A stretch of 64,000 bases of DNA, from positions 186,001 through 250,000 of the forward strand of contig NZ_JAAAMK010000003.1 in assembly GCF_024105665.1 (NCBI RefSeq), read 5' to 3'. The translations under genes were made by a program, and so were the position numbers. The notes beneath the pieces were generated by a model, which was given only the letters and a program-made list of their open reading frames with translations, was not told the origin of the DNA and made no database searches. Shown here piece after piece: positions 4,902 through 56,951 of the stretch. Numbering within the stretch: position 1 is the first letter of the stretch; each line of letters opens with the position of its first letter. This DNA comes from Aliihoeflea aestuarii. Its GTDB lineage: Bacteria; Pseudomonadota; Alphaproteobacteria; Rhizobiales; Rhizobiaceae.

Positions 4902-6125
4902 ATGTCCAAGTGGAAAGACGTCAAGAAGGTCGTGCTCGCCTATTCGGGCGGACTCGATACCTCGATCATCCTGAAATGGCTCCAGACCGAACTCGGCGCG
5001 GAAGTCGTCACCTTCACGGCCGATCTCGGTCAGGGCGAGGAACTGGACCCGGCGCGCCGCAAGGCCGAGATGATGGGGATCAAGGAAATCTACATCGAGG
5101 ATGTGCGCGAGGAATTCATCCGCGACTTCGTCTTCCCGATGTTCCGCGCCAATGCGGTCTATGAAGGCACCTACCTTCTCGGCACCTCGATCGCCCGCCC
5201 GCTGATCTCCAAGCGCCTCGTCGAGATAGCCGCCGAGACGGGCGCCGACGCCATCGCGCATGGCGCAACCGGAAAAGGCAACGATCAGGTCCGCTTCGAG
5301 CTGTCCGCCTATGCGCTCAACCCCGATATCAAGGTCATCGCGCCGTGGCGCGACTGGACCTTCAAGTCGCGGACCGACCTGATCAATTTCGCTGAACAGC
5401 ACCAGATTCAGGTGACCAAGGACAAGAAGGGTGAAGCGCCGTTCTCGGTCGATGCGAATCTTCTGCACTCCTCCTCCGAAGGCAAGGTGCTGGAAGATCC
5501 GTGGACCGAGTCGCCGGAATATGTCCATATGCGTACGGTCTCGCCGATGGATGCGCCCGATGCCGTCACCGAAGTCACGATCGGCTTTCGCAAGGGTGAT
5601 GCGGTCGCCATCGACGGCAAGGAAATGTCGCCGGCGACTTTGTTCGCGAAGCTCAACGAGCTTGGCCGGAACAACGGCATCGGCCGTCTCGATCTGGTCG
5701 AGAACCGTTTCGTCGGCATGAAATCGCGTGGAGTGTATGAAACCCCCGGCGGCACGATCCTTTTGGCCGCGCATCGCGCGATCGAATCGATCACGCTCGA
5801 CAGGGGGGCCGCGCATCTGAAGGACGATCTGATGCCGCGCTATGCGGAGCTGATCTATAACGGCTTCTGGTTCTCGCCGGAGCGCGAGATGCTTCAGGCG
5901 CTGATCGACAAGAGCCAGGAAGATGTCGAGGGCGAGGTTCGCCTGAAGCTCTACAAGGGCAACGTCATCGTCACCGGCCGCAAGTCGAACATGTCGCTCT
6001 ATTCAGACGCGCTCGTTACCTTCGAGGACGATCGCGGCGCGTATGACCAGAAGGACGCGGAAGGCTTCATTCGTTTGAACGCGCTGCGCCTTCGCACGCT
6101 CGCCGCGCGCAAGCGTCAGGGCTGA
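4902..6125 (+). CDS. argG: Argininosuccinate synthase
   Basis: A 407-aa cytoplasmic enzyme that joins citrulline and aspartate with ATP, the penultimate step of arginine synthesis. The N-terminal ATP pyrophosphatase loop reads [15 protein letters not shown]. Further family blocks are visible, such as [13 protein letters not shown] for citrulline/aspartate binding and EGKVLEDPW. The length is normal. It stands alone on the plus strand, 84 bp after the TRAP operon, and its own promoter is presumably in that gap. Confidence 0.97.
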
Positions 6126-41568: not shown

Positions 41569-41625
41569 GCGACTTGCCGCAGGCGCGCGAAGCTGATTCC
41601 CTGACTTTTCCATGCGGGAGGCCTC

Positions 41626-42792
41626 ATGCAGCGGGACATCGTGATCATCGGCGGCGCGATCATGGGCGCGTCGGTCGCCTATTTCCTGCGTGAAGAGGGA
41701 TTTGCCGGCTCTATCGCCGTCATCGAGCGCGACCAGAGCTTCGCAAAGGCCGCGACGACGCTCTCCTGCGCCTCCATCCGCCAGCAATTCTCCATTCCCG
41801 AAAACATCCGCCTCTCGCGTTTCACGCTCAGCTTCTTTCGCGAACTGAAAGAGCGCTTCGGCGCGGGCGCGGATATCGCCTTTCGCGAGAAGGGCTATCT
41901 GATCCTCGCCAGCGAGGACGGCCGCGCCATCCTCGAAGCCAATCATGCCGTCCAGATGCAGGAAGGCGTGGATATCGCGCTGTTGTCGGCCGGCGAGCTC
42001 GAAGCGCGATTTCGATGGCTGTCCGCCGAAGGGATCGCCGCAGGTGCCTATGGCCGCAGCGGCGAAGGCTGGTTCGACGCGCATGCCTTGCTCGGCCTGA
42101 TCCGCAAAAGCCTGAAGGCGCGCGATATCGACCTCGTGCAAGGCGAGGTGAGGGCGGTCGAACGGCAGGCGGACAGCATAAAAGCCGTCGTGCTCGCGGA
42201 CGGCACGCGGATCGAGGCCGCGCTGGTCGTCAATGCCGCCGGCCCCAACGCCGGAGGGGTCGGGGCGATGGCGGGCATCGACCTGCCGGTCGAGCCGCGC
42301 AAGCGGTCCGTCTTCGTTTTCGAGGCCGCCGACCGGTTCGACGACATGCCGCTATTGGTCGATCCTTCGGGCGTCTATGTGCGGCCGGAGGGCGGCGTCT
42401 ATATCACCGGTGGTGCGGAGGATCATGAGAGCGACGGAGCGGCGGACCCGGCCGATTTCGAACCTGACTGGTCGCTGTTCGAAGAGCGCATCTGGCCGGT
42501 TCTTGCCACCCGCATCCCGGCCTTCGAAGCATTAAGGCCGGGCCGCGCCTGGGCCGGGCACTACGACTACAACACGCTCGACCAGAACGCCGTCATCGGG
42601 CCGCATCCCGAAATCGCCAACTTCATGTTCGCAAACGGCTTTTCCGGCCATGGACTGCAACAGGCCCCGGCGGTCGGCAAAGCCCTCGCCGAATTGATCG
42701 TCCACGGCGAATATCGCACGATCGACTGTGCCGCTTTCGGCTACGGGCGGATACGGGAAGGCCGGTCGTTTCGCGAACTGAACGTCATCTGA
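41626..42792 (+). CDS. FAD-dependent oxidoreductase (DAO family)
   Basis: A 388-aa D-amino-acid-oxidase-fold enzyme. The FAD loop is IVIIGGAIMGASVAYFL with the acidic end of the second strand (VIERD). It also shows SIRQQFSIPENIRLS and the C-terminal FAD block GFSGHGLQQAPAVGKALAEL. Relatives oxidise sarcosine, dimethylglycine or other secondary amines. The substrate is not predictable. It is the last chromosomal gene before the prophage region; the direct repeat at 42862 starts 70 bp after its stop. Confidence 0.87.
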   Translation: MQRDIVIIGGAIMGASVAYFLREEGFAGSIAVIERDQSFAKAATTLSCASIRQQFSIPENIRLSRFTLSFFRELKERFGAGADIAFREKGYLILASEDGRAILEANHAVQMQEGVDIALLSAGELEARFRWLSAEGIAAGAYGRSGEGWFDAHALLGLIRKSLKARDIDLVQGEVRAVERQADSIKAVVLADGTRIEAALVVNAAGPNAGGVGAMAGIDLPVEPRKRSVFVFEAADRFDDMPLLVDPSGVYVRPEGGVYITGGAEDHESDGAADPADFEPDWSLFEERIWPVLATRIPAFEALRPGRAWAGHYDYNTLDQNAVIGPHPEIANFMFANGFSGHGLQQAPAVGKALAELIVHGEYRTIDCAAFGYGRIREGRSFRELNVI

Positions 42793-42876: not shown

Positions 42877-43025
42877 AACGCGGAGATGCGCCAGTTTCCA
42901 ATGCGTTAGCTTAAGGTGAGGGCGTTATGGCGCGTATTGTTTGGAAAAGGTAATTTTCAGCGCCACCCTTACCGAATTGACGCCTCCCCCGCCCCGCGCC
43001 ATCTTCAGATGACACCGAGCGCGCC

Positions 43026-43280
43026 ATGCCTGACCATCAACAGAAAACGCCGAAGCTTATCGTCGTGATGGCTTTCGACCGGAACGACGATGGCGAGCTT
43101 GTGACTGCGTTCGGACCGCAGGATTATGCGTCAGAGGATCGTGCTGTGAGGCAGGCGCAGACGCTGGCGCCGAGCCACGCCGGCGTGATCGCCTGGAGCC
43201 GAGACGCGCAACCTGACATCGGCGAATATGGCGAGCCGACGACACTGTTTGTTAGCGGTGACGTGCCGGATATGGAGTGA
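43026..43280 (+). CDS. Small hypothetical protein
   Basis: An 84-aa acidic protein with no membrane segment. It has a beta-strand start (LIVVMAFDRNDDGEL) and a later stretch (AGVIAWSRDAQPDIGEYG) with a DUF-like look. I know similar short proteins from rhizobial prophage ends but no function. It precedes another small gene by 18 bp and both point away from the att site. Coding is likely from codon use, though the ribosome site is weak. Confidence 0.6.
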   Translation: MPDHQQKTPKLIVVMAFDRNDDGELVTAFGPQDYASEDRAVRQAQTLAPSHAGVIAWSRDAQPDIGEYGEPTTLFVSGDVPDME

Positions 43281-43298
43281 TTGAAACAGGAGGAAGGA

Positions 43299-43583
43299 AT
43301 GAGCAGGAGTTTTGATGACGCCGTGGAAGAACGCGACGAAAAAGAACGGCACGAGGAGATTGCGCGTGAGCTGAATATCAGCGTGGGTGAGCTTAACGAT
43401 TTGGGAGGCTACGGTATCGACCGACATACGGGAAATGACGATCACCCGTATTCGTGGCTCGTAATTTTTCATGATCCAGTGCCTGAAGACGTGCGCGAAA
43501 AGATCGGCAGTTTCGTCAACGACACAACGGTCGCTATTTCACTAAATGCATTTGATCGGCCGGAACCTGATGACGACTACTGA
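43299..43583 (+). CDS. Small acidic hypothetical protein
   Basis: A 94-aa protein starting at ATG 43299 with a strong AGGAGGAAGGA site. A charged helix (AVEERDEKERHEEIAREL) is followed by SVGELNDLGGYGIDRHTGND and a strand region. No known domain is recognised. It is cotranscribed with the 84-aa gene. Its 3' side meets, tail to tail, the leftward lysis operon at a shared hairpin. Confidence 0.65.
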   Translation: MSRSFDDAVEERDEKERHEEIARELNISVGELNDLGGYGIDRHTGNDDHPYSWLVIFHDPVPEDVREKIGSFVNDTTVAISLNAFDRPEPDDDY

Positions 43584-43588
43584 AACGC

Positions 43589-43623
43589 AAAAAAGCCCGC
43601 CGCCTCCGAGAGAGACGACGGGC
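43589..43623 (-). terminator. Terminator of the leftward phage operon
   Basis: Read leftward, a stem of about 10 bp including G-U pairs (43623-43614 with 43604-43595) is followed by six T. It lies 58 bp after the last leftward gene. Confidence 0.6.
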
Positions 43624-43680
43624 CAATATGCAGAAATTGCATAATGCTGTCGGATCATGTTGCCGACGTCGGGAAAATGA

Positions 43681-44133
43681 TCAGCGGCGCTTGATCTCGA
43701 ATCGGATAGGCGGTGAGTAGACGCGGATCGGTATGCTCATGATGCGCGCCAGCGGATTGCACTCGTAATCGAGCACGATCTGATACTGTGCCGGCCCGCT
43801 AGCGGCGGCATCTGGGATCGTGATCGTCCGCTGATAGACCTCACGACCTGCCAGAAGCTCAAGGCCCGTCGTCCAACTTGGTATGGCGTGCCGGTTCATT
43901 CCGCTGTCGTAGAGCCAGCGCCTGACATCGATCGGACAGATGCGATGGCGGAACACGTCGAATTCGACGGGGATAGTTCCACCTTGAGCCACAACCGGCG
44001 TCAGCGCGCGCGCACCGAGGTAGGTGATGGGAGGGTCGCGGTCCATCATCCAGACGGTCATGTTGAATGTACCGACTGCTGCCAGCATCAGCACGATACC
44101 GCCGATGATCTTCCATCCGAGATTGCGGTTCAT
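43681..44133 (-). CDS. Single-helix anchored hypothetical phage protein
   Basis: A 150-aa protein with one N-terminal helix (about residues 8-30) and a periplasmic beta-rich part with two or three cysteines (HRICPIDVRRWLYDSG and LDYECNPLARI). It follows the holin and a 95-aa membrane protein, the place of lysis accessory genes. A spanin-like role is possible from position only; there is no coiled coil or lipobox. It overlaps the upstream gene by 4 bp. Confidence 0.65.
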   Translation of the reverse strand: MNRNLGWKIIGGIVLMLAAVGTFNMTVWMMDRDPPITYLGARALTPVVAQGGTIPVEFDVFRHRICPIDVRRWLYDSGMNRHAIPSWTTGLELLAGREVYQRTITIPDAAASGPAQYQIVLDYECNPLARIMSIPIRVYSPPIRFEIKRR

Positions 44134-44417
44134 TTCGACGGCCCTCTACTAAAGAAGCCGATCGCCTTCAGCACGTATTCGTAGAGCACGACCGTACCGA
44201 TAAAGATTGAGATGAAGGTCAGGATCAGCCAGCGCGTGAATTTGCCGAAGGCGCGTAGCTCTTTGACGAGCTTAAAGCCCTCGCGGATATCGGCGGCAGG
44301 CATCTTGACCACTTCGCGGAAGGTATCGAGTTCTTCCGGCCGCAGACCGGCAAGGAACTTGCGCGTTTCCTCCGGCAGTTCGGTGAGCCGAGCCGGCGCG
44401 CGTTCTGGTTCGAGCAA
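44130..44417 (-). CDS. Tail-anchored small membrane protein in the lysis module
   Basis: A 95-aa protein with a helical charged N-terminal part (residues 10-60, with LPEETRKFLAGLRPEELDTF) and one C-terminal helix (about 62-88). The end is basic. It lies between the holin and the 150-aa protein on the same strand. I do not recognise a family. A role in lysis or membrane tethering is suggested by its neighbours only. Confidence 0.65.
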   Translation of the reverse strand: MLEPERAPARLTELPEETRKFLAGLRPEELDTFREVVKMPAADIREGFKLVKELRAFGKFTRWLILTFISIFIGTVVLYEYVLKAIGFFSRGPSK

Positions 44418-44434
44418 TGATCCAGCTCCTGCTG

Positions 44435-44797
44435 TCAGCCGACCGCTTCGGGATCGGGTTGCTGCGTCTTCGCAGCCTCGATCCGCGTGGCAGTGATATG
44501 CGGTCGGATGAGATCGAGAATACGGCTGTCATCGAGGCCAAACTTTTTCACCGCATCGGGAACCGACTGGCGTACGTAGCTGATGGCCGCTCCGGTGGCC
44601 CCATTCTTCGAACCGCGAGCCAGCGCAATCAGAGCCGCGTTTGTCAGCGCCGATTGCAGCGCGTCGCGGTGCTGTGCCTCGATGTCGAGGCCAAGCTTCT
44701 GGAACCAGCGGACGAGCGCCGAGACCAGAGCCGGTACGAGGATGGCAAGCAGAGCGGCGATAACCGGTGCGAGGATTTCAAAAACGGTGGTCCACAT
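44435..44797 (-). CDS. Phage holin, LLH-like
   Basis: A 120-aa protein with one N-terminal helix (about residues 8-28, ILAPVIAALLAILVPALV) and a helical cytoplasmic part (AQHRDALQSALTNAALIALARG). This is the look of the LLH/phi29-type holin superfamily common in phages of Alphaproteobacteria. Holins open the inner membrane so that the amidase can reach the wall. It overlaps the end of the amidase frame by 20 bp because of a frameshift there; before that shift the two genes would have been adjacent. Confidence 0.78.
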   Translation of the reverse strand: MWTTVFEILAPVIAALLAILVPALVSALVRWFQKLGLDIEAQHRDALQSALTNAALIALARGSKNGATGAAISYVRQSVPDAVKKFGLDDSRILDLIRPHITATRIEAAKTQQPDPEAVG

Positions 44798-45647
44798 TGT
44801 CAGGCTCCAAGTGCTTCGAGTTCGTCCAGATCGCGATGGATGCGATCGATGATGGCGCGGTGCGGGCTGGGCTTCGTCGGTTCGAGCGCAGGTGGGCCGT
44901 CGACCATGGCGACGTGATCGCGATGCACCACACGCTGAAGCCGGCCGGCGTGGTGACGTTCAGCCAGACGCCATCAAGACCGTTCACCTCGACAAGCGTC
45001 CCGGCCTTCAGTGAGCCTGTGACATCGCCGTTTGGGCCGTTGCGTGTGTTGAGGACAGGTGCGGTGATTCTGCCTATTCCGCCGGCCGGGACAGGCTCTT
45101 GCGGCGCAGTGGGAGCATTGCCAGCCAAGAGCGCGGCGACCTCTCGGCGCAGCTTGTCGCCGGCTTCCTTGGCGCCGACAACGGATGGTTCGAACGGGAG
45201 TCGGATCACGTCCCACTTGGCGCGCTGTGCGATGCAAAGATTGGCCTGCACCTCGGCGTGGAAAAGGATGGTCTGCGGCGTCACCGGGATCTGATAGAAC
45301 CGCGCATGCTCAGCGACTGCCCGCACGAAGGCGCTCCACTGCACGGCGGTCAAAGGGGCGCGACCGGCGCTGAACGGGCTCTCGATGGCCCCGGCCATAC
45401 AACACATCGATAAACCGATGCTGTCGGTATTGCAGTTCAGGGTGTGTGCCGCGTAGCCGTTCTTGATCGAGCCGGAGTTCAAGTCGATCGACGGGACGCC
45501 GCGAATGATCTTACCGATCCCCTCGATGAGGACGTAATAGGCGCGCTTGTCGGTATCGCTTGCCGTGTGATTGCCAGCCGTCCAATGGCCGATAATCCGC
45601 TTCATGGGCACGCGCGGCATCCACGCTGCTGGGATGACAGACGTCAT
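44778..45647 (-). CDS. N-acetylmuramoyl-L-alanine amidase endolysin, C-terminal frameshift
   Basis: A 289-aa amidase_2 endolysin. Zinc ligands are visible in RIIGHWTAGNH and ILFHAEVQ, then an SH3-like region (about residues 195-235). After residue 235 the frame changes: the expected ending VHRDHVAMVDGPPALEP through DELEALGA lies in the next frame and would stop at 44800. One G is missing in GTGTGG(G)TGC near 44926-44931. The catalytic domain is intact, so it may still work with an altered tail. The start at 45647 has AAGGA upstream. Confidence 0.82.
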   Translation of the reverse strand: MTSVIPAAWMPRVPMKRIIGHWTAGNHTASDTDKRAYYVLIEGIGKIIRGVPSIDLNSGSIKNGYAAHTLNCNTDSIGLSMCCMAGAIESPFSAGRAPLTAVQWSAFVRAVAEHARFYQIPVTPQTILFHAEVQANLCIAQRAKWDVIRLPFEPSVVGAKEAGDKLRREVAALLAGNAPTAPQEPVPAGGIGRITAPVLNTRNGPNGDVTGSLKAGTLVEVNGLDGVWLNVTTPAGFSVWCIAITSPWSTAHLRSNRRSPARTAPSSIASIAIWTNSKHLEPDNVDHRF

Positions 45648-45810
45648 AGCAGTTCCTTTCCCGCCGCATCACGGCGTGAGTTGTACGTGTTAAGATTGTG
45701 GTTGGGGTGCGGGCGGTAGACGCTATGCCAGCGAAGCTTGGAGAGGATTGACAGGCAAGCCCCAAGCAGGCGAGACACGCCAGGAGTTACGACGGACCGG
45801 GGGACATTAG

Positions 45811-47211
45811 ATGCACTCCAGAATCGCTTGGTTGCGAATGGAAATAGCGACGTTGGGCTTTTTGATAGCCTTGACGGTTTGGTCTGTACGTCCGCTTCTG
45901 GAAGAGTGGGGATTGTTCCACTCATACCTGATGCACGGGCTGTCCTACCAGCGGGATATTTTCTCGTTGATAGCGCTCAGGCCTCTGCACCTGACACCGT
46001 CCGGCATGCAGTGGATCCTTGGTGGCGGACATCCGATAGGGGTCGGTGTCGTTGCGGTTTTGCTAGTTGCCGCCCGCTACATAGTCGCAAGATGGGCTGT
46101 TGCGCCATTGCTATCTTCCGCTCATCAGTGGCTGTTCGCCATGAGTGCAACAGCGCTGGTCGGATGGCCAGGGTTATGGCTTGCACGCTTCCACCCTGCA
46201 CAACTGTCTGCGGTATTCTTGTTCGCAGCGCTGGGTTTCTCAATCCGGCTTATTGTGAAGCCGCGAGCCGTCCACTTCGCTGGCGCTGCGTTCTCCGTTG
46301 TCGCCCTTTTAATGACCTATCAGGCATTGGCATTGGTCGTTGCAGCGCTGCCCCTTATTGCGCTGTTCGTACGAGATTTTGACTGGATATCGCGACTGAG
46401 GGGAGTGGCCATCAGCGCGGCTGCGCTGGGGGCTGGCTTAGCGCTGTATCTCCTATACGCCTACCTCGTGCGTGACTTGGCAACAGACAGCTACGAAGGC
46501 CTTCTGATTGCCCATCTGCGATCGGTCGGACTATGGAACGTCTTTGTCGAGAATGTGTCTACGAGCTACGCAACGGTAATCTTCGGCGGGTCTCTCTTTT
46601 TGATCTCGTGTTCGCTATTGATCGGGCTCGCCATCTTGACAGATTGGCGTCCTATGCACGCGGTCCTCGCTTCAATTTTAATATTGCTTACGCCCCTACT
46701 CTCTCTGGTCTACCTCAGCGTCGGTCACTTGAGAGACCCTGAAAGAGCACTGTTTCCAGCGACGGTAGGCGCGTCACTGGCACTTGCCGTTGTCTGCATT
46801 CAAAACAGGGCGCGCGCGCGCCATGGTGTTGCGGCGGTTGGTGTTTTGGCCATGCTCGCCGCGTCAACTGTGTCTGCGTACCAAGTACGGCAGATGTGGC
46901 TTACGCAAGACAGCATCATCAGGCAGGTGCAGGCCATTGCCGAGGAAGTTCAAGGGCCGTTGGTTATCATCGACAATTCTGGCCGCCTCGGAGACGTTTA
47001 CACCTTCTTGGAGGGTACGCTTAGCAATGCCGTGAACGTATACGGCACCGACGCTGATATTATCATCTGCACGCCTGCCGATGTTGACCGGAAGCATCCA
47101 TATGCAGATCGCTATCCGATTCAAACGACCAGGCGCTGCGAAGACATCGATATCTCGGATCGCGAAACTGCTTATGCTAATGGCTGGGACCGGATTGTTA
47201 TTTCCCGCTAA
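45811..47211 (+). CDS. GtrC-like polytopic membrane glycosyltransferase
   Basis: A 466-aa protein with about nine to ten helices and a C-terminal periplasmic part of some 100 residues. This is the shape of phage serotype-converting transferases that move a sugar from undecaprenyl phosphate to O-antigen in the periplasm. The specific family motif is weak, so the call leans on shape and on gtrB and gtrA next door. Its codon and base use are less GC-rich than the host. Its stop overlaps the convergent gtrB stop by 4 bp, an odd layout. Confidence 0.6.
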   Translation: MHSRIAWLRMEIATLGFLIALTVWSVRPLLEEWGLFHSYLMHGLSYQRDIFSLIALRPLHLTPSGMQWILGGGHPIGVGVVAVLLVAARYIVARWAVAPLLSSAHQWLFAMSATALVGWPGLWLARFHPAQLSAVFLFAALGFSIRLIVKPRAVHFAGAAFSVVALLMTYQALALVVAALPLIALFVRDFDWISRLRGVAISAAALGAGLALYLLYAYLVRDLATDSYEGLLIAHLRSVGLWNVFVENVSTSYATVIFGGSLFLISCSLLIGLAILTDWRPMHAVLASILILLTPLLSLVYLSVGHLRDPERALFPATVGASLALAVVCIQNRARARHGVAAVGVLAMLAASTVSAYQVRQMWLTQDSIIRQVQAIAEEVQGPLVIIDNSGRLGDVYTFLEGTLSNAVNVYGTDADIIICTPADVDRKHPYADRYPIQTTRRCEDIDISDRETAYANGWDRIVISR

Positions 47212-48251
47212 GACCGTTCTGCTATGAGATAGCGTGGCCTACCCTTCGATGCGTCGTAAATTCGAGCAACATATTCGCCAACAATCCCGATTGATAGCAA
47301 CTGTAGCCCCCCGATCCCAAGCAACAGCACCACCGTCGTCGCGTAGCCTGGCACCTCTCTGCCGAAAACGGCCGTTTGGACAATTACGATAACAAGATAC
47401 AGCACGGCGATTGCTGCTGATCCCATCCCAATCGCGGACCATGCACGCAATGGCCACGAACTAAACGAAAGGATCGCGCCGAACGCGAGACGCAACATTT
47501 TAGGGGTGGACGATTTTGCGACGCCTCCTTCACGGCGCTGAATGTCAATCGGCACCAACTTCTTCCGAAACCCGACCCATCCAACCAGCCCCTTCATAAA
47601 AGGGTGGTCTTCGCGAAGTCTTCGCAGTGCGTTTACAACGCTTGGCTTCATGACGTTGAAGTCGCCCGCGCCCTCGTCAATTGGCGCATCACTGAGGCTT
47701 CTGAACAGGCGGTAGAACAATCGAGTCATTCGCTGCTGCCGATGTGTTTGGTAGTCACGATTGGACCGAACCCCGCAGACCAAGTCAACATCGGGGTCAC
47801 GCGCAGCCTCGACCAACCTCAGAAGGTCTTGGGCGGTGTGCTGGCCGTCACTATCCATGTATGCAAGAGCGTCAAAATCATCGCCACATTCCAGAATCCC
47901 TGCCATCAGAGCAACTTCTTTGCCGAAGTTGCGCGAGAAGGAGATAAAGCTTATTCGCTCGTCGGAAAGCGCCAGTGCGCGGGCAATTGAGAGAGAGCCG
48001 TCTGTGCTACCATCGTCAACAAGAAATACCCTTGGCGATAACCCTGAACTCGCCACCTCCCGCACGATCGAAAGAACGAGGCTTTCAATATTTTCCGCTT
48101 CGTTGTGGAAGGGTAGAATGATGGTGAGGCGAATAGCCGTCTGATGGCCCTTCTCAACGCGGTTTACAGGCAGGCTCCCTACGTCGCGAGATACGCGGCT
48201 GTCGGAATTGCCTCGCTTAGCCTTTATGTCGCTGTCGCGAGCGTCATGCAT
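47208..48251 (-). CDS. gtrB: GtrB-like bactoprenol glycosyltransferase (GT2)
   Basis: A GT2 enzyme that loads a sugar from its nucleotide onto undecaprenyl phosphate. It has LTIILPFHNEAENIESL, FLVDDGSTDGS, SRNFGKEVALMAG, the metal motif YMDSDGQ, and two C-terminal helices. The start is unclear. The fold begins near 48145, yet the nearest ATG is 48251, which lies inside gtrA on the other strand; a rare start near 48130-48160 is likely. In phages gtrA and gtrB normally run in one direction; here they are divergent. Confidence 0.8.
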   Translation of the reverse strand: MHDARDSDIKAKRGNSDSRVSRDVGSLPVNRVEKGHQTAIRLTIILPFHNEAENIESLVLSIVREVASSGLSPRVFLVDDGSTDGSLSIARALALSDERISFISFSRNFGKEVALMAGILECGDDFDALAYMDSDGQHTAQDLLRLVEAARDPDVDLVCGVRSNRDYQTHRQQRMTRLFYRLFRSLSDAPIDEGAGDFNVMKPSVVNALRRLREDHPFMKGLVGWVGFRKKLVPIDIQRREGGVAKSSTPKMLRLAFGAILSFSSWPLRAWSAIGMGSAAIAVLYLVIVIVQTAVFGREVPGYATTVVLLLGIGGLQLLSIGIVGEYVARIYDASKGRPRYLIAERS

Positions 48252-48542
48252 CGCATCGTCTCCTTGGATGCGGTCATTGCTAACGCGATCGGATATTTCC
48301 TTGCAACGGCATTTAACTACGTCGCCAATTTCTATTGGGCTTTTCGAACTCGACGCAGCCATGCACAGGCTACATGGCGGTTCCTTGTCGTCGTCTTCGT
48401 CGGAGTTATCTTGAACGCGCTTTATGCAGTGCTCCTAGCCAGCCAGTTCGATGTACCCGTAGAGATAATTGCGACCTCGTTCGCGCTTTTGTGGCCGATG
48501 GTTTCGTTTGTTGCACTTAGGATGTGGGCTCTTCGCGGGTGA
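48144..48542 (+). CDS. gtrA: GtrA family flippase-like membrane protein
   Basis: A 132-aa protein of four helices, with the GtrA pattern YVARYAAVGIASLSLYV and NAIGYFLATAFNYVANFYWAFR. GtrA is thought to flip the sugar-undecaprenyl phosphate made by GtrB to the periplasm for GtrC. The length is standard. ATG at 48144 fits the family start. It reads in the opposite direction from gtrB and their 5' ends overlap, so promoters must lie within coding DNA. Confidence 0.87.
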   Translation: MALLNAVYRQAPYVARYAAVGIASLSLYVAVASVMHRIVSLDAVIANAIGYFLATAFNYVANFYWAFRTRRSHAQATWRFLVVVFVGVILNALYAVLLASQFDVPVEIIATSFALLWPMVSFVALRMWALRG

Positions 48543-48544
48543 TA

Positions 48545-48808
48545 TTATCCCGGCTTCGAACCTACGATCACAGCGCTTCCGCCGTTCGAGGCAAAGTTAC
48601 GCGGTCCAAGCGCATTTGCTACATAGTCGCATCCGACTTCCGCATATCGCGCGCCATTAGTGGAAGCCATGCCAAAACCAGCGGTTTCTCTGAAAAGAGT
48701 ATCGCTGACCCGCAACAGTTCGGTGACGTTCGCGCCACGCCATGCGCGCAACGTTCCAATCGTAATGCCCATGTTCGTTGCGCCGCCGGGGTCGCTTGGG
48801 TGATCCAC
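48545..48808 (-). pseudogene. Scar: GH108 endolysin piece joined to a tail-spike end
   Basis: Read leftward, codons for EGGYVDHPSDPGGATNMGI then TLRAWRG (the start of a GH108 muramidase, from about 48825) run directly into NVTELLRVSDTLF through YVANALGP, which looks like the last turns of a phage beta-helix spike. Neither part is complete and no start is evident. The stop at 48545 is two bases from the gtrA stop. The flanking 48809-49029 holds nothing I recognise. Confidence 0.5.
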
Positions 48809-49029
48809 ATAGCCGCCCTCGTTGGGGTTATACTTTTGGTGGCCGCTGGATCAGTTGCAGTTTCAGGATGTGCGGATAGGATCGCCCTCGGCTTGGATGG
48901 CTACGGAATGAACGCGAGAGTGATGGCGCTGATGCTATGCGCCGGCATCAAGGTCACGGTCGCATGGTTCGGCATCACACCAGCCGTCATGCCGACAAAG
49001 CGTGCCACGCGATGATCAGCGGCGGTCCT

Positions 49030-50688
49030 TCATCGTCCATGCCCGAGGCTCCCGTCTGGCTTTCCCTTTGAAGCAGCGAGATCGAGCGCGGCGACGTACT
49101 CACGCACGACGACCGACCAAGATCGCTTCACCAGTTCCTCATCATAAAAGTCTGTTTCCAATTTCAGAAGATCATTTCGATTCTTCAGCGCCCATTCGAT
49201 CTTTGCAGCGAGCTCGCGCCAATCGTACGGATCGAACAGGATTGCTTCTCGCAAATGCTCACGCGTGATGATTTCGCTCGTGACCGGAATGTCGCCCATA
49301 ATGGCTGGCGTGCCCACAGAGATTGCCTCCGTCAACGTGAACGGCATCGCGCCTTCGGCCAAGCTTGGGTTCACGGCAAGGTGAGCCAGCTTATAGCAAG
49401 CTGCTAATTCCTTCTGCGTTAGGCCGCGCAAACACAGAACATCATCGTCGAGATCGTTTTCCTTCAGGAACCGACCCAGTGGGCTATGTCGCGGATCCCC
49501 GGTTAAGATGAGTTTCAGCGACAGGCCGCGCTCGCGTCGAAGGAACGCGTATGCTTTTAGAAGGGTCTGAACGTTTTTGTTTGGTCTGAATTGACTGGCA
49601 TAGAATAAGAATGCTGGCTCACCGAACGCCAAGCGAGGGGCAGATGCATTGTTAAGGCACTTCCCTAACGCCGCCGCCAAATACTGCTGTGAGGTGATTA
49701 GGGACGCCTTGTCGTTATCCGTAAAGCCCGTGACGGTAATATACCGATCAAGACGATTTGCTCCGTGAGGGATTACGGTGACTTTTGAAGTGGGGACACC
49801 AAATTTTTCACCTAGCGTGGTGTTACGAATTTCCACGCTATACGTGATAAAGTGGTCACCGCTCTCTATGATATCGGCAATCGCATCGAATGTCGTTCTT
49901 AGTCTGTCACCACCCTCCTGTTCGCTTGCAAACGGAAGCGGAAACTCGCTGAAAACGACGTCTGGTATGCAAATGACTTTGGGAGCTGCTATCAGATTGA
50001 AGTTTGGCCAGAACGCGGACGGCGTATACCAGGCAAGAACGTCATCCTGCTTATTTGCAAGTTCGCTTAGGTAACGTGATTCAGCATCCTGCATCGCCTT
50101 GTAGACACGCCCTCTAAGCGCTCCAACGATCGAACCTGCTACGTGAGCAACTTTAGAGATTTTGCCGCGCCAGCGTGTAGGGCTGATAAACCTCTGAGGC
50201 AGCAGACGACGCAATAATTTGCCGACGAGCCAGATCAGCAGCATGACGGTTACGAATGGCAGTGCGACCAAGGCAAGCGGAAGCAGTGCTAACAACACCC
50301 ATAAACTTCTCACTCCGACTAAGCGTCTAATCTGCGACTTACCCCATCTCGAAACTTTTGCTCGAAGCCCTATTCGAGCAGGCCGAGAGCCGCGACGTCG
50401 CCTTGCATCAAGACGCTTTTTCAGCCTGTCGAGCCACGAGTAGCCCACCCAGAGAAGGGGTGGATTTTCGGGTATCAGCAGCTTGAATGCGTCTTCCCTG
50501 AGATTGAATTCTTCCCGCAGTTCTTCGTAAGGCTCGCGAAACCAGGAAGGCGCAGCAATCACAAACTCGACGTCATCCAAGTCCTGAGCTGCTTTCAGGA
50601 ATTCCCCTAAATGCCTACCGAGCCCCTCAGCAGTGAAGTTTTTGATGGGACCATACGCAAGATAGATGCCGTACTTTCTCACAGGCAT
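49030..50688 (-). CDS. Glycosyltransferase family 4-like protein with internal membrane segment
   Basis: A 552-aa glycosyltransferase. The C-terminal half (about residues 330-520) is a GT-B donor domain, with FLFYASQFRPNKNVQTLLKA, LILTGDPRHSPLG and the phosphate-binding end NPSLAEGAMPFTLTEAISVGTPAI. The N-terminal acceptor half is interrupted by a basic stretch and a long helix pair (about 128-160), suggesting membrane attachment. It probably adds a sugar to a surface polysaccharide. It overlaps the next upstream transferase by 10 bp. It sits in lower-GC DNA within the phage. Confidence 0.82.
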   Translation of the reverse strand: MPVRKYGIYLAYGPIKNFTAEGLGRHLGEFLKAAQDLDDVEFVIAAPSWFREPYEELREEFNLREDAFKLLIPENPPLLWVGYSWLDRLKKRLDARRRRGSRPARIGLRAKVSRWGKSQIRRLVGVRSLWVLLALLPLALVALPFVTVMLLIWLVGKLLRRLLPQRFISPTRWRGKISKVAHVAGSIVGALRGRVYKAMQDAESRYLSELANKQDDVLAWYTPSAFWPNFNLIAAPKVICIPDVVFSEFPLPFASEQEGGDRLRTTFDAIADIIESGDHFITYSVEIRNTTLGEKFGVPTSKVTVIPHGANRLDRYITVTGFTDNDKASLITSQQYLAAALGKCLNNASAPRLAFGEPAFLFYASQFRPNKNVQTLLKAYAFLRRERGLSLKLILTGDPRHSPLGRFLKENDLDDDVLCLRGLTQKELAACYKLAHLAVNPSLAEGAMPFTLTEAISVGTPAIMGDIPVTSEIITREHLREAILFDPYDWRELAAKIEWALKNRNDLLKLETDFYDEELVKRSWSVVVREYVAALDLAASKGKPDGSLGHGR

Positions 50689-52394
50689 TCCTCAATTAGC
50701 TCCCAGTAGCTCTTGCTGTCTTCAAGGGTTGGCGGTGATCTCATCACGAGGAGGTTCGCTGGCGATACCCCTTCCATACCAACGAATATCGATGATGCGC
50801 GTTCTTCATTCGTGACCACTGCATTGGATAGGCTGGCAATGCCGGAAAGCCATTTATCCGGGAGATCACCGTTATCCAAATCAGCAGCGAGCGACGTACG
50901 ATCGGCGTGCAAGATCAATGGCCGCAACGGAACCGGCGTGTGCTTCAGTTCTCCATTCGCCAGCACCCAGATATCGCAATCTAGGAAATTGTTCATGCCA
51001 TCGTTTGGGAACACATATCGATCATGCCTCGGACGTGAAAAGGCGCGTCCGTAGTGCATCGCGCGATTAACATGCTGCGCGTCCGTGGCCTCCCACCCAA
51101 AATCGCGCGTCGCATATCGCGACTGAGGCTCCAGCCGATTAATTCCAGCACCTGCGGCACGACGAATTCCGATGACCACCTTTATTGATCGCCCGGCTTC
51201 CCTCGCCCCGTTGACTATCAAATCCGCAGCCTGTTCCGCTACTTGCAAGTCTGATGGCTCAGTCAAAATCGCAATTCTGACGGCTTTTGTCTCTTTGACC
51301 GCTTGTGGAGAGTTGGCAGAGGATAGCACTTTTGCCATTCCCACCTCCCACGCTGCCCTGCAATTTTCGGGCTTCATGGGCTCGAGCAATATATGCTGGC
51401 TTTCTCGAACCTCGCGAATGAATTTCTCATCACCCGCAAGGATCCGGTCCAGTTTTTTTCGCGCTTCACGGATTGTCGCGCTTCGGCCAGGTAGCTTTTT
51501 GCCACCGAAACGATCAAGTATCCCTCCCCCCATGAAAATGAGCGGCATCCCCGCAACGATTGCCTCGAAGGGATGGAAGTGAATGTGCGTTGGTTCGGTG
51601 CTGTGATAGAACATGACGCGCAATTGCTTCATATTACGCAAATGCTCGTCGTAGGGCAGATAGCCGAGCACACGATCGTCATCAACAGCGATAGATTGCG
51701 CACCGCCGATTACGCACGGCAAATTCGGAAAGTCTCGTCGGAACTTTCGATAAATTTCTTCATAGACCGGGTTGAAGTTAACGTCGGGGCAGACAAACAA
51801 TGTTCGGCGATCAGTTCCCGTCCATTCTTCGGGTCGAGGTCGCGAGGCGCTATTCATTCCGAGCGGGAGAAAGACAGCTTTGCTTCGAAGGTAGCGATCT
51901 TCAACTTCGTGCAGATGATCATATGCCTCTGCGAACCAAAATCTCCCGTAGAGCTTCCTTATCGACGCATAGGCCGGCTCATAAAACGGATGCGAAGACA
52001 GGATTGAACTGTAGGTATTTCCGTTCGACAGCCCAAAAGTCCTCCAAAGGACTTGCCCCTCGAAATGTTTTTGTGCCGCTTCAAACGTGTCTGGCCGATA
52101 GAGCATTACGAAAGCGACATCAAAGTAGCGACTCGCAAGCTCCCAAGAGCGACGATTGCCGCCCTTGTACCAATCCGTGGCATTCAAAATAGCCAAGTCA
52201 TCGGCTGGGATTGTCAGATACTGATCATGCTCCCAATCCACGGAGGCACTTCTGAAGTTCGGGTCGTCGGGATAAATCTTCGGCGTAAATACCTCGTTGA
52301 AGCCAATGCTCTTCAGCATCGACACCTCGAATTTCCGCGCTGCCGTATGGTTCAGCAACCACATAATGCGGGGTACATTGTCTACTCGTGGCAA
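50679..52394 (-). CDS. Large glycosyltransferase-like protein, two domains
   Basis: A 571-aa protein. It opens with PRIMWLLNHTAARKFEV and PKIYPDDPNFRSASVDWEHD, and has a GT-B-like middle with FYHSTEPTHIHFHPFEAIVAGMP (about residues 262-286), where the late Glu fits the donor-site acid. After a linker (about 385) a second, degenerate domain follows. I know this start from uncharacterised polysaccharide transferases. TTG at 52394 with AACGAGG is the probable start; ATG at 52364 is an alternative. It is coupled to the GT4 gene downstream. Confidence 0.7.
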   Translation of the reverse strand: MPRVDNVPRIMWLLNHTAARKFEVSMLKSIGFNEVFTPKIYPDDPNFRSASVDWEHDQYLTIPADDLAILNATDWYKGGNRRSWELASRYFDVAFVMLYRPDTFEAAQKHFEGQVLWRTFGLSNGNTYSSILSSHPFYEPAYASIRKLYGRFWFAEAYDHLHEVEDRYLRSKAVFLPLGMNSASRPRPEEWTGTDRRTLFVCPDVNFNPVYEEIYRKFRRDFPNLPCVIGGAQSIAVDDDRVLGYLPYDEHLRNMKQLRVMFYHSTEPTHIHFHPFEAIVAGMPLIFMGGGILDRFGGKKLPGRSATIREARKKLDRILAGDEKFIREVRESQHILLEPMKPENCRAAWEVGMAKVLSSANSPQAVKETKAVRIAILTEPSDLQVAEQAADLIVNGAREAGRSIKVVIGIRRAAGAGINRLEPQSRYATRDFGWEATDAQHVNRAMHYGRAFSRPRHDRYVFPNDGMNNFLDCDIWVLANGELKHTPVPLRPLILHADRTSLAADLDNGDLPDKWLSGIASLSNAVVTNEERASSIFVGMEGVSPANLLVMRSPPTLEDSKSYWELIEECL

Positions 52395-52483
52395 AGCGTT
52401 GAGCCTCGTTAAGAGCCTGCGGGAAGCTAGCTACCTAGACGATCCCCTCCGCCTTGGAAAGCACACTTCAACCCTGCGAAGGC

Positions 52484-52711
52484 TTATGCCGAAATAGCTC
52501 CGATATTTGAAGCGATGAGCGTTCCACCGGCCCCGATCCATTGGAAGTGCCCCGAAGAGGCTCCTTCCTGGATTAGATTGCCACCAGCGTTCGCAACGTA
52601 CCGCGCTGTCGAGACGATGTTCCTGTTCGAGCCAGCGCCTGTTTCAACGTAGCCTCTGCCTGTGTTCTCCCGCGACACAAGACCAATGAACTGACAGTCG
52701 GTGCTGCTCAC
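52484..52711 (-). pseudogene. C-terminal part of the tail spike, split off by a frameshift
   Basis: A 75-codon frame with beta-helix style short repeats (GYVETGAGSNRNIVSTARYVANAGGN) and a polar end. It continues the spike of 52708-53850. The upstream frame stops right after GHGVSL, and adding one base near 52710-52716 joins both parts. Taken alone it has a GTG start at 52711 overlapping the stop. A separate small gene is less likely. Confidence 0.6.
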
Positions 52712-53850
52712 AAGGAAACACCATGACCGAGATTGTAGTCCGACACGGTGTTTGTGAACTGAGCTCGGGCTGAATTTACGATAGGAATACCGTTGTTGTC
52801 AGGAGCGCCGGTGAGGCCGCGCGCACCGCGAATTTGCGTGTTGGCAAATTTCAGGTCGGAAGAATTACTGATGCTGAGAGGCTGACCGAGATTCTGGAAA
52901 ATACACAGGAAGTCGGAGAAGACGTTGAATACATTGTCGATCACCAGACCCGGCTCGCGTGTGTTGTCGATCAGGACGCGCGTGAGCCAGATGGACGCGC
53001 GACCATTCGTGGTCCCGTAGATGCCAAGCCCGAGAGCATCATTCTGGTAAACGGATGCGGGCTGCACCGGTCCCACGACGTCGAATTTTTCGAGTTCCAG
53101 GCCGATAACGTCAGTGAACAGAGCGCCGCCCCATGTCACTTGCGCACTGTTGTATGTGTGATCGATCTTGAAATCACGAAACGTAATGAAGCCCCGCGAG
53201 CGCCGGGAACGAACCTGCCGGCCGCGCGTGAAGTAGCATAGGCAATCTTCGAAGATCACATCCACGATGTAGTTCGAAGAGGTGTCCTCGTCGCCAATGG
53301 CCTCGCCACAATGCATGAAGTCAACGTTATGCGCTCGAAAGCCAAAGACGTTGCCGTCCAGTAGCCCAAAACGAATTGCTGTTACGGAAGTCGGACAGGC
53401 TGAAAGATCAAACAGGACGCTCTCGATTTTCGCGTAGCCGCCGATGCTGTGCGAGCGCACGCGAACAGCCCAATAGGCCCCAGATGGTGTTTTCCACTGA
53501 ACCTTACGCGTGCCAAATATCTCTTGCCGGGTTCCGAGAGTGATGTTGCCCGCCACGAAGCCGGTAGCAGTCCATGGGATAATCGCTTTCCCGCAAACGT
53601 CGAGCGCGGCTTGGATGCAGCTACTGTCGTCAGTAACGCCATCAACCGCCGCCCCGAACGCTAAGATCGTCGGAGCAACTGCCGGTGCGTACACCCTTTC
53701 CCAATAGAAGCCGGCCGTATTGCTGACGACGTAGATGCCTTCCATCCCGTCGACAACAGGCGGCGTGCCTACCTTCAATAGAAACTGTCCCTCGCGGCCG
53801 GGTTCCTTGAGATAGGCGGATGTGATCGTCTCTGTATCGAGCGCCTTCCC
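52708..53850 (-). pseudogene. Phage tail spike/fibre with right-handed beta-helix, 5' truncated
   Basis: Recognisable spike sequence starts near 53850 (LDTETITSAYLKEPGREGQF, then VVSNTAGFYWERVYAP). It passes a linker FGAAVDGVTDDSSCIQAALDV, the typical entry of pectate-lyase-like helices, and goes on to GHGVSL. The frame is open to 54015, but those first 55 codons are only the shifted tail-tip gene. There is no start codon for the spike itself, and the last part is frameshifted. Such spikes bind and often cut host surface glycans. Confidence 0.68.
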
Positions 53851-54673
53851 ACTGATAGGAAGCGCTCGGCATGGACTGGACCTGTAAGGTAACGCCCGTG
53901 AGGATGCCGCCCTCGCCAAGATTGAAGCGGAAGTCCTGCACCTCAAAGACACTGTTGATCCCGAACAGCGGATACTGGATGCGGACGAACCGCTCTCCAA
54001 TCGCTGCCAGTGCACGCAGGTTCATCTGGAACGTGCCGACCCATGCCGGATTGGCCCGATAGTAGGCCAGCTTCATCAGCCGGCGCGTCTGACTGTGCGA
54101 TGGCGACATATGGAACTGGAGGTCCGAACTGATTTCTCCACGCTCGGAAACATCATCTTCGTCGGCCCAAGGATCGGCATCGGCCGCTTGATAGTCCTGG
54201 TTCGGTTCGAGATAGGTCGCGCGGATCGTGTTCGCCGTGGTCAGCACGTCCCGGCCTCGGCCGAGTTCGGAGAATCCGGTAATCGCGTCAGGCCCGAGAA
54301 CGACCGTCGGTTCTGCCCATGTGCCAATGTCGAGTGTCAGGCCACCGTCAGGCGTCGGCACCAGCCTGCCATCGCATGATTGAAGCATGCGGCCGAGAAC
54401 GTCGGCTGGACGCTCGTTGAGCTGATAAGACCCCCACAGGCGATAGCGCGGTTCCGTGCCGCCTGCTGCCAGCGCAATCGCCTGCGCTGCGCGATTGAAC
54501 GCCGCAACCCAGCCGGCCTGAGCGAGAGGCGTACCGATGATTGATGCCGGTAGACGCATACCGTCGCGATGGGTGAGATAATCGCGAATGATCAATGCTG
54601 CGCTATAGCGTTTATCGTCGGCGTGATGATCGCTTGCGCATGGAGGGTGGGATGAGCCGGCGCGCCGCGACAT
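53642..54673 (-). pseudogene. Phage tail tip / central tail protein fragment
   Basis: The homologous part spans about 54600-53850 (residues 25-275 of the frame), with IRDYLTHRDGMRLPASIIG, GRMLQSCDGRLVPTPDGGLTL and the C-terminal INSVFEVQDFRFNLGEGGIL then SMPSASYQW. This is the end of a TipJ/host-specificity-type baseplate protein, normally several hundred residues longer. Its front is cut where the integrase module begins. After 53850 the frame runs into the spike gene out of frame, so a deletion fused the two. Confidence 0.7.
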
Positions 54674-54842
54674 TCACCGCCGAGGATGTGACCCGCGCTT
54701 TGCGTGGTGCCGTAAGGCAAAGGTGCCTATCGCCCGCTGCGAAATTACCACCGATGGCAGGATCGTCCTGATCCCCGGCGAACCTGACAATTCACCATCT
54801 GGAAGAATACCTCTTGCAAAAGAAGAAGAGGGGCATCTGTAA
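54652..54842 (+). pseudogene. Small integrase-associated gene, frameshifted
   Basis: ATG at 54652 has GGAGGGTGGG upstream and reads MSRRAATFTAEDVTRALRGA. About 24 codons in, the frame is lost at GGCAAAGG (54716-54723). The shifted frame continues KVPIARCEITTDGRIVLIPG and ends at TAA 54840-54842, sharing TAATG with the integrase start. I know this small protein as the usual partner in front of rhizobial prophage integrases; it may be an excisionase-like helper. Confidence 0.6.
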
Positions 54843-55955
54843 TGTCCCCTATGCCAAAGAAGCGACTGCCATTTATCCAGCGAGAAACGAGTCGTCACGG
54901 TCGCGTCGTTTGGTATTTCCGCCGACCGGGCGGTCCTCGCATTCGTCTTCCTGAGACATACGACACGCCGGCCTTCTGGCATGCATACAATGCTGCTCTG
55001 GCAGGCGAGGTCGAGGATAAGCGGGCCGCACTGCCCCAGCATCGGCACGGCTCCCTGTCATGGCTGATCCGACAATACAAGCAGAGCCAGGCATTTTGCG
55101 AGCTTGCTGACAATACACGCAAGACCCGCGACGCGATCCTGCGCCAGATCGACCAGTCCGGCGGCGCCCTGACGGCAGCAAACATAACGGCAAAGCACAT
55201 TCGGGAAGGACTGGAGAAGCGCGCGGGAGAGCCGGGAGGCCAACGGAATTTCCTACAGACCATGCGTGGCCATTTTCCAATGGGCCGTGCCTGATCACGT
55301 CGATACTGATCCGACTGCGGGCTTTCGCGTGAAGATGCCGAAGACGGCCGGGCACCTGACGTGGACTGTCGAGATGATCGAGCGTTACCACGAGCGCCAT
55401 CCGCTCGGGACGAAAGCGCGTCTGGCGATGGACCTCGCGCTCTATACCGGCCTACGCCGATCGGACATCTGCCGAATCGGGCCGCAGCACATTTCGAATG
55501 GTGTCATGACCATTCGAGCCAAGAAGGGCGGGGAGATAGTCGAAATAGTCTTGCCGGTGCTCGAGCCGTTGCGACAGAGCATCGCCGCGTCGAAGGTCGG
55601 CAATCTGGCATTTGTCGTCACCGAGTATGGCAAGCCTTTCACTGTAGCAGGCTTTGGCAACTGGTTCGCCGATCGGTGCAACGAGGCAAAGGTTGACGGA
55701 CGAGCGCATGGCCTGCGCAAAGCTGCTGCCACCTTCGCGGCAGACAACGGCGCGACAACGCACGAACTGAACGCAATCTTCGGCTGGTCAGGACTTCAGC
55801 AGGCAGAGCTTTACACGCGCGCCGCGAACCGTCGAAAGGCGGCGCTGGCGAAGACGCATCTCATGATGCCGGATCATATGCGGAACACAAATACCCGCAC
55901 CCACGATGACGGTACGGGTAACAGCGCAGAAAGCGCCAAGAAATCAACTGCTTGA
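54842..55955 (+). pseudogene. int: Tyrosine-type phage integrase, frameshifted
   Basis: The first part (54842-55294) holds the arm-binding and core-binding domains, up to RNFLQTMRGHF. The second (from 55266 in the next frame) continues AIFQWAV, then the catalytic domain with GLRRSD (Arg), HGLRKAAAT (His and Arg) and the tyrosine in QQAELYTRAANRR. One extra base near 55264-55270 breaks the gene. Apart from that all key residues are present. It lies 9 bp from the attR repeat, as integrases usually do. Confidence 0.85.
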
Positions 55956-56253: not shown

Positions 56254-56951
56254 TGTCACGCTTGCCAGAGAGCAGTGTCCTGATCGCGCTGAAAGCGATC
56301 GGGCTAGCGCCTGGCTTTACGGGCGACACGCGGCGCGTTGCCGCCGCCATCCTCGATCATTTCAATCACAAGACCGGCCGCTGCGATCCGAGCAATGAAC
56401 GTCTTGCAAAGCTCCTCGGAATATCCGTCCGGATGGTGCGCAAGGCGACGAAAGAGCTTTGCGAAGGCATGACGCCGCTATTCGAGAAAATCAGCCACGG
56501 CGGTCACTCTCATTGCGCGAGCTACACCCCGCTTTGGGCGACCTTCGCAAGCATCGTCGCGGAGTGGAATTCGGCGATGAAAGGTTCACCCGTTGAAGCG
56601 GCAAACAGGAACAACCGTTCCTGTTCAACAGGAACAGATGTGCCGGTTGAACAGGAACAGATGTGCCTACAAACCAGTCTTAGGAACCAGTTGAAAGAAC
56701 CTGAGCTGGTTGAGGGGCAGAGAACCAACCTTCATCGACCCCGTCAGGTTGATACTTCGAATGGGCTTATGACCGAGAGGCGCTTGCCGTCGAGACAGAA
56801 GGCAATGCTACTCCCGGTTGTGGGCGGGAGAAGCGCCGCAAAGGCGGATGCTGCGGAGGCGGCGCGCCATCGCAGGATCGCTGCCGAAATCAACAGTTTG
56901 CCGAAGCATGAACGCGAAGCCGCATGGCTGGCGCAGATGGGGGAAGGCTGA
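56253..56951 (+). CDS. Helix-turn-helix phage protein, possible replication initiator
   Basis: A 232-aa protein with an N-terminal winged-helix region (about residues 20-80, with HKTGRCDPSNERLAKLLGIS and VRMVRKATKEL). This resembles the DNA-binding parts of phage replication proteins such as those of the lambda O class. The middle is low-complexity, encoded by iteron-like repeats, and the end is basic and Ala-rich (ADAAEAARHRRIAAEINSLP). It overlaps its neighbours on both sides (TGATG). A transcription-regulator role is the alternative. Confidence 0.7.
   Translation: MSRLPESSVLIALKAIGLAPGFTGDTRRVAAAILDHFNHKTGRCDPSNERLAKLLGISVRMVRKATKELCEGMTPLFEKISHGGHSHCASYTPLWATFASIVAEWNSAMKGSPVEAANRNNRSCSTGTDVPVEQEQMCLQTSLRNQLKEPELVEGQRTNLHRPRQVDTSNGLMTERRLPSRQKAMLLPVVGGRSAAKADAAEAARHRRIAAEINSLPKHEREAAWLAQMGEG
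56617..56667. repeat. Iteron-like repeats inside the helix-turn-helix gene
   Basis: The 18-bp word AACAGGAACAGATGTGCC occurs at 56627-56644 and 56650-56667. A shorter AACAGGAACA copy is at 56604. GTTCCTGTT-C-AACAGGAAC (56617-56635) is a perfect palindrome. The copies start 23 bp apart. Confidence 0.6.

Follow-up and report, generated by a model that had tools for sequence, protein, structure and literature searches.

A divergent gtrA/gtrB pair with predicted overlapping coding starts, recurring in three bacterial genomes, in a putative periplasmic glycosylation locus

Three intact reading frames on alternating strands make up the locus described here; all coordinates refer to the window, by which we mean the whole stretch of 64,000 nt that was analysed. 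The first frame, on the + strand (45811-47211; Shine-Dalgarno (SD) energy -8.6), encodes an orphan multi-pass membrane protein of 466 aa, a possible GT-C transferase that we refer to as gtrC-like. Its stop codon shares the four bases CTAA (47208-47211) tail-to-tail with that of gtrB on the - strand (47208-48251), which is predicted to encode a polyprenyl-phosphate glycosyltransferase of 347 aa, including an N-terminal extension of about 38 residues. The third frame, gtrA, lies again on the + strand (48144-48542) and encodes a predicted GtrA/DPMS-family membrane protein of 132 aa, a proposed flippase. The 5' parts of gtrB and gtrA run head-on into each other (48144-48251). The GC3 values of the three genes are similar (0.61 for gtrC, 0.59 for gtrB and 0.61 for gtrA). 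An earlier sequence-only reading of this DNA had pointed out the alternating strands, the tail overlap, the head-on overlap and the intactness of all three frames, and on each of these points the frames, their coordinates and the sequence at the stops bear it out.

The assignment of gtrB follows from several matches of its product: to the Pfam domain Glycos_transf_2 (E 5.9e-28), to PHROG 841 'GtrB-like' (E 4.6e-79) and, over 308 residues of the core, to PDB entry 5ekp (E 1.6e-56), with 5eke also related. Both entries we take to be Sll0501 GtrB of Synechocystis. Two hydrophobic segments are present in the C-terminal part, where the structural model has helices at 266-296 and 304-335. The family 2 domain, the pair of C-terminal helices and the relatedness to a solved GtrB agree with membership of the GtrB family. 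The gtrA product is likewise predicted to belong to the GtrA/DPMS family, based on an essentially full-length match to the Pfam family GtrA_DPMS_TM (PF04138; E 2.6e-15; residues 16-129 on profile positions 1-116 of 117) and a match to PHROG 2224 'GtrA-like' (E 9.4e-5).

The third protein is a different matter. The 466-aa gtrC-like sequence had no match at cut-offs of E 10 for Pfam, E 1 for NCBIfam, E 0.001 for PHROGs and E 5 for the PDB sequences, and PF14264 found nothing anywhere in the genome at E 10; its sequence thus does not place it in a known GtrC/GtrII-type family. Homologues were absent from the phage and IMG/VR collections, and among 151 genomes the window's own copy was the only one. 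The hydropathy profile displays several hydrophobic segments followed by a less hydrophobic, soluble C-terminal part; in broad terms this agrees with a GT-C enzyme, without proving one, and a single-sequence AlphaFold2 model (mean pLDDT 46) was too poor for fold comparison. The identification as gtrC in the sequence-only reading therefore holds as far as multi-pass hydropathy and position go; the name is positional, carries no family match and is not backed by a gtrC beside the pair elsewhere.

The extent of the head-on overlap depends on the start codons. Ahead of the catalytic core of GtrB, ATG 48251 and ATG 48362 are the only in-frame ATG, GTG or TTG codons. ATG 48251 is preceded, 8 nt upstream, by AAGGAG in a Shine-Dalgarno region that lies within gtrA (48254-48265, - strand), with a duplex energy of -8.3 kcal/mol; all SD energies are those of duplexes with an assumed anti-SD sequence. 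ATG 48362 lacks an SD (+0.8) and would extend the frame to 47208-48362 (-), giving a protein of 384 instead of 347 aa and an overlap of 219 bp. For gtrA, ATG 48144 is the sole canonical start that keeps helix 1, since the next one, ATG 48246, would delete it. With gtrB starting at 48251 and gtrA at 48144, the overlap is therefore 108 bp. The sequence-only reading had named the lack of a usable gtrB start as a refutation, and ATG 48251 with its AAGGAG provides such a start. The nearest ATG, GTG or TTG lies 39 residues from the GtrB core, the largest distance among 137 rows of the locus survey, five of which are the window itself.

Relatives of the pair were sought widely. A pattern scan of a collection of 84,980 species genomes yielded 57 loci, among which by far the closest GtrB relative was that of Chelativorans sp. 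J32 (locus L033; 59% identity), the next ones matched along most of the query reaching 42% at most. In Chelativorans gtrA is on the - strand and gtrB on the + strand, head-on as in the window, and the pair sits between genes that by eye appear to encode an ABC transporter and an MFS transporter. A second additional case came from a GtrA search (E 1e-12) of 394 genomes of the window's family, in which only the window and genome G226 (locus L091), from a different genus of that family, matched. Judged by eye from the translations, the G226 pair adjoins putative GDP-mannose and GDP-fucose enzymes and an O-antigen-type ABC exporter. The divergent overlap hence spans three genomes and at least two genera. 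The search among 385 genomes of the class (GtrA, E 1e-10) returned the window only, that among 397 genomes of the order (GtrB, E 1e-62) returned 12 others at 35-40% identity with no further divergent overlap, and that among 300 relatives of the Chelativorans genome (E 1e-80) returned that genome alone. The G226 gtrB (1783-2052 of L091) reads as far as the DDG motif, after which the frame continues in unrelated sequence and stops close to where the contig ends; an insertion or the end of the assembly may be the cause. A gtrB profile at E 1e-14 found no match in that genome.

Same-strand order prevails among the collected loci: gtrA adjoins gtrB in 93 rows (177 loci), of which 78 are same-strand (44 tandem B-A and 34 tandem A-B), 2 convergent and 13 divergent, although these row counts do not equal natural frequencies, since similarity to the window's genes was the basis for collecting the loci, and only the divergent rows were de-duplicated. 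The 13 divergent rows represent six distinct loci: the window (5 rows), Chelativorans (3), G226 (2), L013, L032 and L050. In L013 and L050 the nearest canonical starts leave gaps of 198 and 429 bp, and in L032 the starts are about 250 bp apart; among the six, overlap is found in the window, Chelativorans and G226 only. Nine plasmid loci (L163-L171), hand-picked among the matches listed, comprised six tandem pairs and three loci without an adjacent pair. The convergent gtrB/gtrA pairs of L047 (4983-6306) and L053 (4983-6371), whose domain matches lie only 38 and 103 bases apart, also depart from the prevailing order.

Since the same rare overlap is present in two other bacteria, it looks kept rather than accidental. 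What reappears elsewhere of the alternating layout that the sequence-only reading proposed to look for is the divergent, overlapping gtrA/gtrB pair, in two more genomes; no gtrC was found beside the pair in either of them. Its suggestion that the genes are still under selection is in line with a comparison of the window and Chelativorans copies, in which third codon positions differ most, as expected for purifying selection: the differences at the three positions are 0.36, 0.25 and 0.71 for the gtrB core (59% identity, a conserved core) and 0.52, 0.31 and 0.66 for gtrA, and no dN/dS ratio is given because dS is saturated.

In all three genomes the codon boundaries of gtrA and gtrB coincide within the overlap, as judged from the coordinates, and each gtrB codon is therefore the reverse complement of a gtrA codon; in the window, codons 1-36 of gtrA read in exact reverse complement give the first 36 codons of gtrB. 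The starts are similarly placed. In Chelativorans gtrB has ATG 4884 (+) with GGGGGA upstream (-8.4), and gtrA (-) has candidate starts at 4964, 5003 and 5042, all with weak SDs, so that the overlap from the SD-equipped gtrB start is 81, 120 or 159 bp depending on the gtrA start. In G226 gtrA (-) runs from ATG 1878 and gtrB (+) from ATG 1783 with GTGAGG upstream (-6.5), an overlap of 96 bp. TTG codons lie nearer the gtrB core in both genomes and would shrink the overlaps to 9 bp in Chelativorans and 24 bp in G226, but they lack an SD (+0.3 and -2.1 kcal/mol, respectively). Every pair of canonical starts overlaps nonetheless, by 108 bp in the window, at least 9 bp in Chelativorans and at least 24 bp in G226. 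The SD-equipped gtrB ATG is within one codon of the same place in the three genomes, and because it is shifted by one codon in the window relative to Chelativorans and G226, it is not accounted for by one conserved residue of GtrA.

Could such a start arise by chance on the antisense strand of any gtrA? As controls we used 82 non-overlapped gtrA genes, whose first ~105 nt contain 177 antisense ATGs in any frame. Only 2 of the 177 have an SD energy of -6.5 kcal/mol or better and none reaches -8.3, the values of the overlap starts being -8.3 (window), -8.4 (Chelativorans) and -6.5 (G226). An in-frame ATG among the ten deepest codons from which the frame stays open is present in 4 of the 82 controls and in all three overlapped loci; these had been selected by gene order and not by start or SD, although they are not independent, because they are homologous. 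The SD scores are less striking against random window positions, 4.6% of which score -8 or better and 13.3% of which score -6 or better. At 17 gtrB starts of other loci, hand-picked from 129, the scores range from -6.0 to +1.2. That the antisense frame is open counts for little: 62 of the 82 non-overlapped gtrA genes are likewise free of stops in this phase for 24 codons, and synonymous recoding of the window gtrA start left the frame open in 34% of trials, and with that ATG as well in 16%.

These comparisons bear on the most serious alternative, namely that the overlap is only apparent, gtrB starting at a non-canonical codon beside the core (ATT 48134 or CTG 48173) and the buried ATGs being unused. 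In most GtrB relatives a canonical start is indeed found only a few residues from the core, the duplex energy at ATT 48134 is moderate (-5.0), and a survey of 2008 (PMC2478687) attributed each of the 75 divergent overlaps above 60 bp that it examined to a misannotated start. Nor is third-position change reduced in the overlap (13 of 22 versus 65 of 95 codons, p 0.46; 0.65 versus 0.69 over three sequences), so that no constraint is detectable on the sequence of the GtrB tail itself. ATT and CTG are, however, rare as starts, and the SDs of the buried ATGs in the three loci surpass those of nearly all control antisense ATGs, which makes this alternative unlikely.

The extra GtrB tail is antisense to the gtrA start and first membrane helix. 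Complementarity of the middle bases in paired codons makes the antisense product of a membrane helix hydrophilic, and the GtrB tail has this character. In an AlphaFold2 model of GtrB built from 40 sequences (mean pLDDT 85) the first four ten-residue blocks average 45-63 and the rest 70-98; the tail (residues 1-40, of low model confidence) is probably disordered.

A second alternative is a noncontiguous operon, in which a single + transcript would run from gtrC to gtrA across the antisense gtrB, the gtrB mRNA being both coding and antisense. Such an organisation has been described (PMC7154746, in the part considered here). It would suit the placement of gtrB antisense between two + genes, the 4-bp tail overlap, which leaves no space for an intergenic terminator, and the uniform GC3. 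The pair in Chelativorans and G226 nevertheless has no gtrC match beside it, nor does the whole Chelativorans genome contain one at E 0.1, and this organisation therefore cannot explain the conserved overlap; the region moreover holds 8 terminator-like sites against 3.3 expected. We regard it as improbable.

The surroundings of the locus are partly phage-like. G+C content is 53-57% at about 46-54 kb, which includes the gtr genes, compared with 58-69% in the first 43 kb, and the low-G+C island (46000-54000) also holds two large - strand frames, for a group 1 glycosyltransferase and an unnamed protein of 571 aa. On one side the gtr genes are flanked by a phage-endolysin-like amidase (44778-45647). 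Directly downstream of gtrA lies a fragment of a glycosyl hydrolase 108 (phage lysozyme type) gene (48545-48808, -; profile positions 13-41 of 85). An integrase is split over two overlapping + frames (54842-55294 and 55266-55955) near head-protease, capsid and tape-measure genes, and phage head and tail genes extend to 61.9 kb. Within this phage-like part, positions 56604-56668 carry a 30-nt imperfect inverted repeat (83%), its arms 2 nt apart, which includes a direct repeat of 23 nt. Four sister genomes (stretches of 13-14 kb) match the window at 41573-42792 only, so that no right-hand boundary of an empty site was found, and none of them matches the adjacent glycosyltransferase (49030-50688) at E 1e-20. 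An Rfam search of 43000-50000 gave no match. A scan for sigma-70-like promoters found none in the overlap and 2 in the 3.6-kb region, with 2.2 expected.

A phage origin of the gtrA/gtrB pair was considered and rejected. Neither the phage collection nor IMG/VR (candidates from short patterns) contained a gtrA relative, GtrB relatives on the phage side are at most 40% identical, and the nearest relative found is bacterial. The sequence-only reading had suggested that the locus may be an inverted phage cassette; the gtrA and gtrB of the window are not on the same strand, as they are in phage gtrABC cassettes, and the 59% identity to Chelativorans, compared with 38% to the best named phage, speaks against it. 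As Chelativorans carries the same divergent pair, the orientation predates the window locus. That a phage gtrABC cassette was inverted by chance and is now a decaying relic would agree with the broken phage genes close by, the low G+C and the truncated gtrB of G226. The frames in the window are intact, however, the orientation is shared with two other genomes and the nearest relative lies outside the phage and viral collections, which renders this explanation very improbable. The idea, related to the surface-glycan switch of the sequence-only reading, of an invertible DNA switch that flips gtrB relative to gtrC and gtrA draws on the alternating strands and nothing else and is hardly credible, since no inverted repeat of at least 22 nt lies near the genes, shorter ones are imperfect or inside genes and none cleanly brackets gtrB alone (a 15-nt pair of 80%, 47170-47184 and 48653-48667, considered without a chance control, encloses gtrB and gtrA together), and gtrB has the same orientation relative to gtrA in three genomes.

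We consider it probable, from the sequence comparisons, that the window contains a three-component periplasmic glycosylation locus with a genuine, conserved divergent gtrA/gtrB pair whose coding starts overlap. In such a pathway GtrB would charge undecaprenyl phosphate with a sugar, GtrA would carry the lipid-linked sugar across the membrane, and the GT-C-like protein would transfer the sugar. Translation of gtrB would begin at ATG 48251, inside the codons for the first helix of GtrA; with gtrA starting at ATG 48144, the promoter and ribosome-binding site of each gene would thus lie within the coding region of its partner. Both genes are presumably transcribed. If they are, opposed transcription at their 5' ends is physically forced, and the 5' ends of the two mRNAs would be able to pair with each other along 108 nt or more, both start codons included. 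The complementary ends may limit or couple the outputs of gtrA and gtrB in an excludon-like manner. A more far-reaching version is that the overlap of roughly 100 bp is itself selected, that the obligatory 5' pairing of the mRNAs sets the ratio, or the mutual exclusion, of charging and flipping, and that the GtrB tail is a new sequence overprinted on gtrA; this we put forward only tentatively, as it is rather doubtful. Should the overlap of the coding starts be confirmed, it would join protein-tail overprinting with an imposed antisense pairing at the 5' ends of two genes linked in function; annotation that rules out overlaps of this kind would then place gtrB wrongly or lose it.

In the classical system, as summarised in PMC11127046, undP-Glc is synthesised by GtrB, GtrA is the proposed flippase, and transfer is finished by a GT-C enzyme; by analogy, the same chemistry is likely for the window locus. 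As in the GtrABC systems for O-antigen glycosylation (Shigella SfII/SfV, Salmonella epsilon34 and relatives), members of the GtrA and GtrB families are adjacent with a multi-pass membrane protein alongside. In those systems, however, gtrA and gtrB are same-strand neighbours, whereas in the window they are divergent and overlapping, the third gene is an orphan on the strand opposite gtrB, and GtrB is at most 38% identical to the named phage copies. With Sll0501 GtrB (5ekp, 5eke) the window protein has the core in common; of the two, it is the window GtrB that has the antisense-encoded N-terminal tail. The layout is compatible, again by analogy, with the excludon and the noncontiguous operon, in which genes on opposite strands necessarily have partly complementary mRNAs, as would those of the window; in the examples in the part of PMC7154746 considered, the overlap concerns UTRs or whole interspersed genes, as opposed to the coding starts in the window. 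We found no report of a divergent overlapping gtrA/gtrB pair in the open-licence literature, and the accessible part of PMC7457138 contains nothing on divergent pairs. The phase of the window pair (123:321) accounts for 30% of 274 divergent overlaps according to the excerpted text of PMC2174442. The pair is head-on and longer than 60 bp, like the long divergent overlaps of PMC2478687. It differs from those cases in its recurrence in three genomes, each time with an SD-equipped start; in the window, moreover, no choice of ATG, GTG or TTG removes the overlap without losing helix 1 of GtrA. With a strong SD and its ATG lying inside the gene of a pathway partner in all three, the gtrA/gtrB pair is a testable candidate for a counterexample to the conclusion of that survey.
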